The notes beneath the pieces were generated by a model. It did no database searches and was not told where the DNA came from. It worked only from the letters and a program-made list of their open reading frames with translations. A stretch of 64,000 bases of DNA from Candidatus Bathyarchaeia archaeon (GTDB taxonomy: Archaea; Thermoproteota; Bathyarchaeia; Bathyarchaeales; Bathycorpusculaceae). Made by a program: the position numbers and the translations under genes. Shown piece after piece: positions 31,061 through 56,960 of this stretch. Numbering within the stretch: position 1 is the stretch's first letter; the number at the start of each line of letters is the position of its first letter. The DNA is taken from positions 124,001 to 188,000 of the forward strand of contig CP166960.1 of the NCBI GenBank assembly GCA_041447175.1. The letters are read 5' to 3'.

Positions 31061-31131
31061 CTGCCGTAGCATGAAAAATGTAACAGGTATCCACGTTTGT
31101 CTTTTTGTATTAACTAAGTGTTGGGACAAGC

Positions 31132-31158
31132 TGTTCTTTTATGAGAACATATTGTTCT
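31132..31158 (+). promoter_or_regulatory. Three-half-site element (TGTTCT) upstream of beta-helix gene
   Basis: TGTTCT at 31132-31137, AGAACA at 31144-31149 and TGTTCT at 31153-31158 form two overlapping inverted repeats with spacers of six and three bases. A 27-base element with the same layout (21 of 27 bases equal) lies at 56934-56960 upstream of another secreted-protein gene, in the same orientation to its gene. It ends 40 bases before the ATG here. This looks like a transcription-factor site; the shared TTTTA between half-sites may be part of the TATA region. Confidence 0.65.
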
Positions 31159-31198
31159 TAGAGGAGAGCTAATAGGCGCTTCTCCAGTTAAATAACTG

Positions 31199-33271
31199 AT
31201 GAAAAACATGAAAAACATAGTTGCCTTAACCCTGATTACCATAAGCCTCACCGCGCTCTGCATAGGAGCCGCTCAATTCACGCAGGCAAACCCGCAAACG
31301 CTGATTGTCCCAGACGACTACCCCACAATAAATGCGGCTCTTGGATGCGCAGTCGAAGGGGACACCATTTTTGTTAGAAACGGTATATACAACGAAACAG
31401 TAACAGTCAACAAGGCGGTTTCGCTCATCGGCGAAAACAAAGAAACAACCATAATTAACGGGCAAATCACAGGAACCGTACTTGTAGTCCGACATGACAA
31501 CGTGAACGTCACCGGCTTCACGGTAGTCTACGGTTTCTCGCCTCACACTCCACAGTCAATCTGGATGTGGAGCACCAGACTCGCAGGCATCCACATGTTA
31601 AGCGTAAAAGGCTGCAACATCAGCGGCAACAAGGTCTCGGATTGCGGCGCAGGCATCTGGCTCTACGACGCCCACCAAAACACCATTTCAGGCAACACCT
31701 TCGCTAACAACGACTACGGAATGCGGATTGAAAAGTCCACAAACAACAACCTCACAACCAACGTCGTAACGGGCAACTGGGGCGGCATCCGACTCCTCTT
31801 CACCTCAGGCAACAAGCTATCAGGCAACTACATGAACAACAACGCCCAAAACTTGGGCATCTCAAACGAGAACCTTGCCTTCGCCACCGACGAAGTTGAC
31901 TCATCTAACCGTGTGGATGGCAAACCAGTGTACTACTGGGTTGGCGCCTCAGACATGGATGTGCCTGCGGATGCGGGGTATGTGGTTTTGGTGAACTGCA
32001 CCAACATGAAGGTTCAAGGATTAAGCCTGTCCAAGAACCAAGAAGGCATGATTTTGTCAAACACTCAAAACGTAGCCGTCAGCGGCAACACCGTAACAGA
32101 ATGCACAACGGGCATCATAATGCAAGACTCAGCTTTCGACGAAGTGTTTGGGAACAGCGTGAGGACATCAACGGGCATAAACGCCAATGGAACAGGAACA
32201 AAAATAATAAACAACACCATAACCGCGCAGAACGTTGGGATAGGCACAGGTGGCTCTTTCTTCACAGTTGTGAACAACACAGTAGACATTAGTGAATGGC
32301 AGGGTAACCTGATTAAGTGCTCAGGAACCTACACTAACATAACCGAAAACACATTAACGGGCACAAGCTACACCTACACGATTATAGAAGGCTCAGATAA
32401 CCTGTTTTATGAAAACACGTTAATTAACAGCTACGGGTTACGGGTAACTTCCGACCGAAACCTAATTGCCCAAAACAACGTAACGGGCGGCAGCATCTCC
32501 GTCAGCGGCAACAACAACACCGTATGCGTAAACAGGATAACAAACGGGTTCGGCTTAACTGTCGCAGGACACTACAACCACTATTTCGCCAATCAAATCC
32601 ACGACAATACTCAAGGAGCAGACACAGGCGGCTTAGAAGCATACTCCTCACACAACACGATATACCAGAATAATTTTGTAGGAAACCAGCAACAAATCAA
32701 AAATTACGACAATACAGGCAACTTGTGGGATAACGGCAAAACCGGCAACTTCTGGAGCGACTACAACGGCACCGACCAAAACAGCAACGGCATCGGCGAC
32801 ACCCCATATGCCATTATGGGCAACGCGTTCACTACCGGCGGGTTGGTTCCGATAGTTACGGGTCAAGACAACTATCCGCTTATGGCGCCCTTTGACATTT
32901 CCAGTGTAACAGTTGAGTTTCCTCAATGGGTGCTCACTACTCCAACTCCGCCACTAACCCCTACGCCTACACCAACACCTACGGCGAACCCATCGCCAAC
33001 CCAAAACGTCACACCAACACCCGCCACTTCCCCAACAGACTCACCCAAACCCAGGGAATCACCACTGCAGTCGGCTACTATGCAACCTACACCTTCATCA
33101 ACAAATCCTACACCCAGCCCAGCAGACAACAACCCCGGTTTGTTTAACGGCGGCTTCGTGTTTATTCTGGTGGCAGTTGCAGGAGTCACAGTTGCAGTTG
33201 GAGCAGAATTGCTGCGTAGAAAAAAGCGGACGCCAAATCTAAACGGCGTGCCCGAGGCAGATTCTATATAA
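31199..33271 (+). CDS. Secreted NosD-like parallel beta-helix protein
   Basis: A 690-residue surface protein. A signal peptide covers residues 1-30. Then comes [14 protein letters not shown], the usual start of NosD/right-handed beta-helix proteins, and a long run of helix turns with Asn-rich steps such as [16 protein letters not shown] and [16 protein letters not shown] Pro/Thr linker (about 580-645) and one transmembrane helix with RRKKR end the protein, so it is anchored outside the cell. Beta-helix proteins bind or cut polysaccharides, or act as adhesins; which applies is unclear. The promoter carries a three-half-site element also found before the secreted protein at 56884. Confidence 0.88.
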
Positions 33272-54826: not shown

Positions 54827-56884
54827 CTAGAAACGCCAAAAACGAATTAATTTTGAAGAAGTTATGCGCCTGCCACGTTTTCTCCAGAACAGACCTGCAA
54901 CCATCAAACTTGCACCTACAGCAACAACGGTAACACCCAGCCAAAACGGCTCAGGTGAACGTGAATTGCCGCTTGAGGACGCAGAGTCTGAGGGTGAAGC
55001 CTGCAGCGTATGTGTCGGCTCAGGAGGGGCGGTTAACTGCGAAGATTGCGGTTGCGCTATGTCAGGTGTTGGCGTGGTTGTAGTTGTCGGGTTCGCGGTT
55101 GAAGCCTGCGATGGCGTAGCGGAGGGTGCCACAGTGAACTGAATCAGCCCTGAGGTGCCCACAAGCCCTAACTCGTCCTCAGCAAACACCATCAAAGTGT
55201 GCTCTCCCGAAGCTAAATCCGCCAGAGAACTGTTGTGAGTAAGAGTCTGGTTTGCTTGCCCGTCTAAACTGTAGCTTGCTGATGCAAGGGGCTTGTTTGC
55301 CGTGAGGTTCACGGAGAGGTCGTCGGGTTCAACGCTGTTTTGAAGCAAATTAACCGTGACAAACAAGGGAACTGTGTCAACCACAAAATTCTCAAAGCAA
55401 ACAGTCTGTGACCGCCCGCTGTTGTAGTCAGCGTCGGCAGCATACAAGGTGATGTTGTGGTTGCCGTCAGGCAAATCGGGGATTGTAGTGTTGCCAGTTA
55501 TGGTTATGTTTAGGCCTGAATCGATTTGGTAGCCCATCCAGATGGCAGGCTTGTTGAGGGAGAAAAACAGTGGAACGCTACTGTTTGTGTAGATTTTGTT
55601 TTCAGGGGACAGAATCGAAATTTGAGGCGGCGTTAGGTCCTCAACTTGCTTTAAAGTTACGCGCCACATGCACGCGTCAAGTCCAGTGAGAAATTGCCCA
55701 TAGCTTTGCTGGGTGCCCGCCATCAAAAACTGGCTGGAGTTCGGCTGGAGAATGCAGTAAGCACGCGTGAATTGCAAATTGTCCTCGGATAAGGCGTCAT
55801 AAGTTTTGCTCCACAGAACATCACCCTCTGAATCGGTTATTATTAGGCACGCGCGGTCCCCACACATCGCGTAGCCGCCCTCATTTGTCTGTACAATGGA
55901 GTACACGCCCAAGATTCCGCCGTAATCTTTTTCCCACAGCATGTTTCCTTCAGCGTCGGTTTTGACAAGCCAAGGTGAAGAAGAATTGAAACCGCTCGTC
56001 ACCAAACATCCAGCTAACGCGTAGCCGCCGTCAACCGTTTGAGTCACCGACTCCACATGAGCTTCTGCTCTTGGTCCAGAGTACGTTTGGTTCCACTGCG
56101 TTTGACCGTTGGTATCAATTTTGATGAGCCCAAATGCGTTTGGGTTGTCTGTGGCTATCACGTATCCGCCGTCGTCTGCGGGGCTGATTGCTTTGGTGCC
56201 TTGCCCAGGGTAGGTGGCGTTCCACTGCATATTGCCCTCGGAGTCAGTTTTTATCACCCAAGTGCTCTGGAAGGATACGTCGGAGTTGGTGTAGCCAGCT
56301 AAAAGGTATCCATCGTCAGATGCCAAAGCAATAGTGGTTAATGCGTCGTCTCCTACTCCGCCAAAGGTCACGTTCCACAGCAAAATGCCGTCTACATCAG
56401 TCTTCACCAGATAGGCGTCTGAGCCTCCTGCGCCAAATGATTTGGTGTAGCCCGCCAACACATATCCGCCGTCGCTGGCTACAACTATATCTTCTGCCAC
56501 ATCATCTTGGGCGCCACCAAAGGTTTTTCGCCACTCCACAGAATCCATGTAGTAGCTGCCCATTCCGGGAAAGACGTTTAGGTGTGATGCAGTTTTTATG
56601 AGCCACACATCCAAGTCGCCTGCGCCCAAAGAAGCTGTGTAGCCTGCAAGCACAGTGCTGTTATCGCTTTTTGATTCTGCAATAGCATGAACCACGTCGT
56701 CTTTGTCCCAGCTTACCCCGAATTCGCTACTCAGGTTCAGCATGCCTTGTGATTGACTCTTGTATTCAGCTTGGGCAGGTAACGACCAACAGAGAGTCAG
56801 AATTAAAGCTACCAGTAAGACACTGGCAAACGCCTTGCCTTTTGGCATTGGAAAATTGTGCAAGATTGGTTTTTGGCTTTTCAC
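54827..56884 (-). CDS. Secreted, membrane-anchored propeller-like protein
   Basis: A 685-residue surface protein. A signal peptide lies within residues 14-40 (ending AQAEY). Then come six or seven repeats of about 50 residues with the pattern W-x-K-T-F/Y-G-G-x-x-D-D... DGGYVLAGYT... D(A/S)YLVKTD, which fold as a beta-propeller. From residue 420 there are two Ig-like domains (PPQISILSPENKIYTNSSVPL and a second), then a Thr/Pro/Ser linker of about 70 residues, one transmembrane helix and an Arg-rich tail. ATG 56884 or 56848 starts it. The promoter shares a 27-base element with the beta-helix protein gene at 31199. Confidence 0.85.
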   Translation of the reverse strand: MKSQKPILHNFPMPKGKAFASVLLVALILTLCWSLPAQAEYKSQSQGMLNLSSEFGVSWDKDDVVHAIAESKSDNSTVLAGYTASLGAGDLDVWLIKTASHLNVFPGMGSYYMDSVEWRKTFGGAQDDVAEDIVVASDGGYVLAGYTKSFGAGGSDAYLVKTDVDGILLWNVTFGGVGDDALTTIALASDDGYLLAGYTNSDVSFQSTWVIKTDSEGNMQWNATYPGQGTKAISPADDGGYVIATDNPNAFGLIKIDTNGQTQWNQTYSGPRAEAHVESVTQTVDGGYALAGCLVTSGFNSSSPWLVKTDAEGNMLWEKDYGGILGVYSIVQTNEGGYAMCGDRACLIITDSEGDVLWSKTYDALSEDNLQFTRAYCILQPNSSQFLMAGTQQSYGQFLTGLDACMWRVTLKQVEDLTPPQISILSPENKIYTNSSVPLFFSLNKPAIWMGYQIDSGLNITITGNTTIPDLPDGNHNITLYAADADYNSGRSQTVCFENFVVDTVPLFVTVNLLQNSVEPDDLSVNLTANKPLASASYSLDGQANQTLTHNSSLADLASGEHTLMVFAEDELGLVGTSGLIQFTVAPSATPSQASTANPTTTTTPTPDIAQPQSSQLTAPPEPTHTLQASPSDSASSSGNSRSPEPFWLGVTVVAVGASLMVAGLFWRKRGRRITSSKLIRFWRF

Positions 56885-56933
56885 GCGCTACACCAGTTAT
56901 AACTGTAGGGGGATGGCTTTTATTTCTCTCTGA

Positions 56934-56960
56934 GGAACAAAGTGTTCCTCTAAAAGAACA
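56934..56960 (-). promoter_or_regulatory. Three-half-site element (TGTTCT) upstream of secreted protein
   Basis: Read on the minus strand: TGTTCT, six bases, GGAACA, three bases, TGTTCC. On the plus strand the core is GAGGAACA-AAG-TGTTCCTC (56932-56950), a perfect eight-base inverted repeat, with AGAACA at 56955-56960. It equals the element at 31132-31158 in 21 of 27 bases and has the same direction to its gene, whose start is 49 bases on. The divergent trehalose gene lies on the other side, about 170 bases away. Confidence 0.65.

Follow-up and report, generated by a model that had tools for sequence, protein, structure and literature searches.

A control sequence before dozens of secreted surface-protein genes of uncultured Bathyarchaeia and its candidate membrane-anchored regulator

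What is the role of a short sequence that stands, in two similar copies, just upstream of two genes for secreted proteins? The window, i.e. the whole stretch of 64,000 nt analysed here (positions 124001-188000 of a single-contig Bathyarchaeia genome of 2.73 Mb), holds both copies (Table 1). The first-pass annotation had described them as 27-base elements with 21 of 27 bases equal, ending 40 nt before the ATG at 31199 and 49 nt before the GTG at 56884, and we find them exactly there. The GTG lies 76 nt from the first base of element 2, matching other targets. We find the element to be one copy of a control sequence that precedes dozens of secreted surface-protein genes in these uncultured archaea. 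As far as can be judged from sequence, this supports the proposal that the two genes share one regulator, with a genome scan defining a regulon around them.

Table 1. Elements, boxes and target genes in the window (window positions)
Feature	Position	Strand	Basis
Element 1, three strong half-sites TGTTCT-N6-AGAACA-N3-TGTTCT; TGTTCTTTTATGAGAACATATTGTTCT = TGTTCT-TTTATG-AGAACA-TAT-TGTTCT	31132..31158	+	Pattern match; profile E 1.1e-12 over 31130-31181
Element 1 constant box GGAGAGCTAATAG	31163..31175	+	Copies lined up; TATA position by analogy with paralogue promoters
Imperfect extra half-site GGGACA, 3 nt upstream of element 1	31123..31128	+	1-mismatch match, opposite strand
Element 2, three strong half-sites TGTTCT-N6-GGAACA-N3-TGTTCC; TGTTCTTTTAGAGGAACACTTTGTTCC = TGTTCT-TTTAGA-GGAACA-CTT-TGTTCC (56960-56934)	56934..56960	-	Pattern match; profile E 6.0e-11
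Element 2 box AGAGAGAAATAAAAG (diverged GGAGAGYTAAAAG) at BRE/TATA position	56915..56929	-	3 mismatches to constant box
Target gene 1: secreted NosD/beta-helix protein, signal peptide and C-terminal membrane anchor	31199..33271	+	
Target gene 2: secreted PQQ-like propeller protein, C-terminal membrane anchor	54827..56884	-	

Could the likeness between two promoters be accidental, given that short half-sites recur randomly in any genome? In the window, the pattern at up to three mismatches gave 5 matches versus a shuffle mean of 0.40, all five being elements 1 and 2 read on both strands. Throughout the genome, TGTTCY-N6-RGAACA-N3-TGTTCY at up to two mismatches matched 25 times (some of these being one site read from both strands) versus 0 for the reversed control, and a search for the downstream box described below gave 16 matches versus 1 in the control. 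A sequence-only profile of the element returned 35 matches at E <= 1, with about 18 distinct sites below 5e-6. When 84,980 bacterial and archaeal species were scanned for exact matches to the extended element, all 21 hits came from stretches titled Bathyarchaeota or, by the older name, miscellaneous Crenarchaeota group; within the collection searched, the element is restricted to Bathyarchaeota. A class-wide profile at E <= 1e-6 matched in 35 of 256 genomes, 30 of them in the window's own family (f1) and 5 in a second family of the same order (f4). The genome scan that the annotation had proposed thus delineates a regulon whose genes encode secreted and anchored proteins; its matches were neither scattered at random inside genes nor missing from relatives. 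The genome scan, the 84,980-species scan and the hydrophobic segments of the targets (51 of 53, see below) together refute chance similarity, which we regard as vanishingly improbable.

What do the targets have in common? We counted 63 distinct sites at >=20 bits in the retrieved loci and none in shuffled sequence, the former not being an unbiased count as loci were mostly retrieved for holding a site. The gene start usually follows the element's first base by 60-85 nt. Among targets of at least 80 aa, 51 of 53 bear an N-terminal hydrophobic segment (signal peptide or anchor), compared with 187 of 741 other ORFs in the same stretches, and 35 of the 53 (103 among the 741) have a C-terminal one as well. 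Folds recognized by Pfam include NosD/beta-helix, PQQ-like propeller and PKD; for target gene 2, PQQ_2 scores slightly under its gathering score. The regulon hence consists of secreted, mostly membrane-anchored surface proteins.

Some individual loci deserve mention. Good copies of the element at four places in the window's genome (L094, L095, L100 and L101, at about 2541580, 2382660, 1782150 and 1802140, respectively) are followed by no long ORF or by an early stop after the signal peptide, and represent decayed surface-protein genes or assembly frameshifts. At L093 (923844 and 925583 of the same genome), two related beta-helix genes stand in tandem with one element copy each: a recent duplication of a regulon member together with its promoter. 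Four targets (L098, L099, L104 and L111) show a PEF or EFP motif right before the C-terminal membrane helix (IPEFPLW, VPEFQVW, VPEFTVT and EFPAW), possibly a sorting signal.

How far does the element reach, and how is it built? While the three half-sites of the 27-base version stand, its 3′ limit was too short: with the copies lined up, a constant box that had not been selected for, GGAGAGYTAAA, appears 4 nt past the third half-site in most of them, extending the consensus to TGTTCYTTTnnnRGAACAnnnYGTTCYnnnRGGAGAGYTAAA, so that element 1 spans 42 bp (31132-31173). An alignment of 33 sequences reads TGTTCYTTTnGnRGAACAnnnYGTTCYYnRGGAGAGYTAAAAG; because its 21 foreign rows were chosen by pattern, only the unselected columns (TTT after half-site 1 and the final AAG) are independent there. 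Rather than three half-sites with unequal spacing, as noted originally, we count four, forming two inverted repeats in tandem at 21–22 bp. These 18-bp repeats, TGTTCY-N6-RGAACA and YGTTCY-N6-AGAGYT, typically lie 21 bp, or two helical turns, apart, and the last half-site is degenerate and runs into the TATA region (in element 1, AGAGCT at 31165-31170, inside the box and merging into the presumed BRE/TATA region). The tandem layout is plain in one copy from the window's genome (L108), TGTTCTGCAGGGAGAACC-ATAC-GGTTCTGCAGGGAGAGCT-AAA. Variants shift the middle half-site and mostly keep the distance from first to third (N5/N4 = 21, N7/N2 = 21, N6/N4 = 22). Of the binding modes initially suggested, two dimers would fit better and a dimer plus monomer worse, since four half-sites form two tandem inverted repeats.

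Generic promoters of the genome yielded a weak BRE/TATA signal, farther from the start codon than in the targets, so our TATA assignment draws on position and on the promoters of a universal paralogue (see below). We rejected the idea that the box is just a general BRE/TATA box, as 10 of 12 occurrences of GGAGAGYTAA, in own-genome sequence enriched for site loci, belong to these elements. Two further resemblances were noted. GGAGAGC and GCTTCTCC form an imperfect inverted repeat around the element 1 promoter box (31163-31185), which is absent from the other copies lined up and probably due to chance. AGAACA-N3-TGTTCT resembles the vertebrate steroid response element, in our view a coincidence.

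Inverted repeats can also pair as RNA, and the element might act as a structured leader that folds in the mRNA and affects translation or termination. However, for neither possible hairpin did covariation exceed that of shuffled letters (275/500 and 281/500 shuffles reached the observed score), and no Rfam match for the element was found. Moreover, the TATA-like box lies 3′ of the half-sites, which are therefore probably not transcribed. Given this position and paired columns that show no compensatory changes beyond shuffles, we read the element as DNA and reject the RNA hairpin, leaving a leader function highly improbable.

Which protein might bind here? Clustering the ORFs near the sites brought out one DNA-binding family, of ~150 aa, at 14 loci (two pairs of which are one place retrieved twice), and no second one stood out. 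Its members combine an N-terminal winged helix (PVGPRDVMRGANLSSPSVAYRHLQKLEDLGL) with two C-terminal hydrophobic helices, predicted to be membrane helices. An AlphaFold2 model built from only 4 sequences (pLDDT 77.5, pTM 0.58) consists of the winged helix and long helices at 86-107 and 114-147, so that, as predicted, one protein would unite a DNA-binding domain with at least one membrane helix, the structural mark of transmembrane one-component transcription regulators (TTRs). Pfam reports winged-helix similarity only, mostly under the cut-offs; one divergent member (L058) alone passes generic winged-helix cut-offs, with PF01726 just above threshold there and below it in most others. NCBIfam gave nothing above cut-off (TIGR00498 far under it), and neither database returned a family covering the whole protein. 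Matches in the PDB, to winged helices of IclR, MarR and LexA, were weak (best E = 0.01).

Genes of this family keep close company with the element. In relatives, 9 of 40 element loci have one within 1.7 kb, versus 0.33 expected. The window's genome encodes 8 paralogues, and 4 of 9 weak sites there, picked after being seen, have one no farther than 1.5 kb away. Site and regulator gene are adjacent in two genomes of family f4 (G106 and G122). The arrangement is either operator, secreted gene, regulator, or a regulator divergent from the operator (L046, L061). This shows an excess of genes for winged-helix proteins with two transmembrane helices beside the element and its variants; likely, then, a previously unnamed membrane-anchored DNA-binding protein reads the element. 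Separately, in four genomes of genus g12 (G047, G130, G148 and G154), the EF-2 gene has a regulator paralogue no more than a few hundred bases away.

Does any one branch of the family follow the canonical element? In the tree, a single clade (clade A; support 99/96) holds 1-2 members per site-bearing genome examined, and its profile separates 26 members at >=227 bits from all others at <=210 bits. Among family-f1 genomes with sites, 26 of 30 carry a clade-A gene, versus 1 of 25 tested without (counting a cut gene in G043), a comparison that treats genomes as independent, such that Fisher values overstate the evidence and shared descent weakens the test. The four site-bearing exceptions are the window's genome and G048, with diverged members, and G058 and G139, with no clade-A gene. 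G043, which lacks a site, was considered as a natural clade-A knock-out and rejected: its gene is cut by a contig end rather than lost, which makes this genome a counter-example. On an EF-2 tree of 30 genomes, the regulator trait changes 5 times and the site trait 3 times; of just 4 tree-independent pairs on well-supported branches, which makes for an underpowered test, 2 agree, 0 oppose and 2 are uninformative. The association between clade A and the canonical element is good but not decisive.

Alternatively, an unrelated soluble regulator or a TFB variant may read the element, the membrane winged-helix genes being further targets in the same operons. Such an arrangement would account for regulator genes often lying downstream of a target in the same direction, for the majority of clade-A genes having no adjoining element (4 of 26 have one) and for a GGAGAG box at the BRE position, where TFB binds. 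Yet the neighbouring family is itself a DNA-binding family and no other is prominent near the sites, its different subfamilies accompany different operator variants, certain regulator genes (again L046, L061) are oriented divergently to the element and clade A tracks the canonical form. We deem a soluble reader unlikely. The best explanation as a whole, in which we place considerable confidence, is that a one-component winged-helix regulator, anchored in the membrane, uses the element as its operator.

If so, different regulators might recognize different operators, of which we distinguish three types: N6/N3, N5/N4-GAATTATTAG and N5/N4-GGAACG. The subfamily 'SSPSVAYRHLQKLED' (L046; SSPSVSYRHLQKLED in L061) adjoins an N6/N3 operator with GGAGAGYTAATAG, 'SSPSVAHRHLQKLE' adjoins TGTTCT-N5-RGAACA-N4-TGTTCTTCGGGGAGAATTATTAG, and 'SSPSTAYRQLQKLE' adjoins TGTTCC-N5-GGAACG-N4-TGTTCCGTRAGNAGAGCTAATAG. 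This pairing is suggestive of specificity, not proof of it, because neighbouring genes are inherited together and the match could reflect descent. Within one genome, several paralogues seem to recognize variants of the operator. In the window's genome, the promoter of the clade-A gene at 96879 itself contains an almost complete operator, TGTTCC-N6-GGAACA-N4-AGTTCC, followed by GCAGAGCTATAAAG. One paralogue, present in 7 of 7 relatives examined, mostly has TGTTCTAAnnATTGGACTTATAT or something near it in its own promoter, that is, the proximal repeat alone and then a clear TATA box at the matching position; this probably represents ancestral autoregulation. The upstream regions with this conserved promoter are those at L206, L235, L237 and L239-L241. 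Tentatively, and with a little less than even confidence, we picture an expanded bathyarchaeal family of minimal membrane-anchored winged-helix switches, each with its own operator dialect and often with a secreted-protein gene as neighbour, the membrane-bound product of which may serve as co-sensor; one member would have risen to be master regulator of the surface proteome. If true, paired changes in recognition helix and operator would constitute a natural specificity code.

How does this candidate compare to known systems? Its winged helix may resemble the DNA-binding domain of LexA/DinR (PF01726, below cut-off in most members), and the Gram-positive LexA box is likewise made of GAAC/GTTC half-sites. 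However, LexA carries a C-terminal self-cleaving peptidase domain where the present family has two membrane helices, and Pfam and NCBIfam gave no peptidase match; the spacing of the half-sites differs, too, and the targets here are surface proteins. Lacking the peptidase domain, the regulator was rejected as a LexA.

Similar in architecture are ArnR and ArnR1 of Sulfolobus acidocaldarius, likewise one-component archaeal proteins, which pair an HTH at the N-terminus with two membrane helices at the C-terminus and control surface structures (PMC6396743). ArnR has two inverted-repeat boxes just upstream of BRE/TATA, between -43 and -84, both required for binding in vitro (PMC6396743), a layout as found here. 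ArnR differs in having, between its HTH and the membrane helices, a HAMP and a sensing domain (PMC6396743); the ~150 aa of the present proteins leave no room for either, and none was predicted by Pfam or in the AlphaFold2 model. The ArnR boxes read TCGAC-N5-GTCGA and its targets are type-IV-pilus-like structures (PMC6396743), whereas the operator here is TGTTCY/RGAACA and the targets are beta-helix, propeller and other secreted proteins. By analogy, the regulator would work like ArnR and other transmembrane one-component regulators, and it is not ArnR by architecture or operator. DNA-binding domain and membrane helices in one protein are shared with TTRs in general (PMC10269533); that paper makes no mention of Bathyarchaeia, for which the present proposal comprises an operator, with variants specific to paralogues, and a list of targets. 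EarA of Methanococcus maripaludis, as cited in PMC13286277 and PMC6396743, is similarly a winged-helix activator upstream of a weak BRE that controls a surface structure; according to the same passages it binds TACATA repeats, unlike here, and they describe no membrane helices, again unlike here.

On this reading, the canonical element would be recognized by the clade-A subfamily, which in the window's genome would govern about 20 surface-protein genes at scattered places. A spacing of two helical turns between the repeats would put two regulator dimers on the same side of the DNA, just upstream of and touching BRE/TATA, where they might activate by aiding TBP/TFB at a promoter with a weak-looking BRE. 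Strengthening the BRE bypasses EarA, according to the passage in PMC13286277; the same would be expected here of an activator at a weak BRE. As the regulator has no other sensor domain, the signal would be received by the membrane helices themselves or by a partner in the membrane; speculatively, a natural candidate for such a partner is the secreted protein encoded next to the regulator in the operon-like modules. We infer binding to the element, the dimeric state and activation, and hold the last of these to be fairly probable. Conversely, the same membrane regulator might be a repressor at the same operator, its bound dimer blocking TBP/TFB until a membrane signal releases it. The fourth half-site, AGAGYT, does lie within the BRE/TATA region, and operators also occur in regulator promoters, as in negative feedback. 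Still, the three strong half-sites stand upstream of BRE/TATA, the usual position for archaeal activators (compare the ArnR boxes, PMC6396743), and it is the degenerate box that touches the promoter, which leaves repression a possible if doubtful mode. Most likely, the regulator is a membrane-bound activator of the surface-protein regulon.

Bathyarchaeia abound in sediments and have hardly been cultivated; in the literature we searched, we found no account of a regulon in them. The operator, the list of targets and the candidate regulator are now concrete and testable in vitro without a culture. Much of the cell-surface make-up may be set through one membrane-bound switch; if true, this would place Bathyarchaeia beside ArnR as a further archaeal case of membrane-bound control of cell-surface genes. 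The paralogues and their operator variants, in turn, offer a route to a protein-DNA recognition code.
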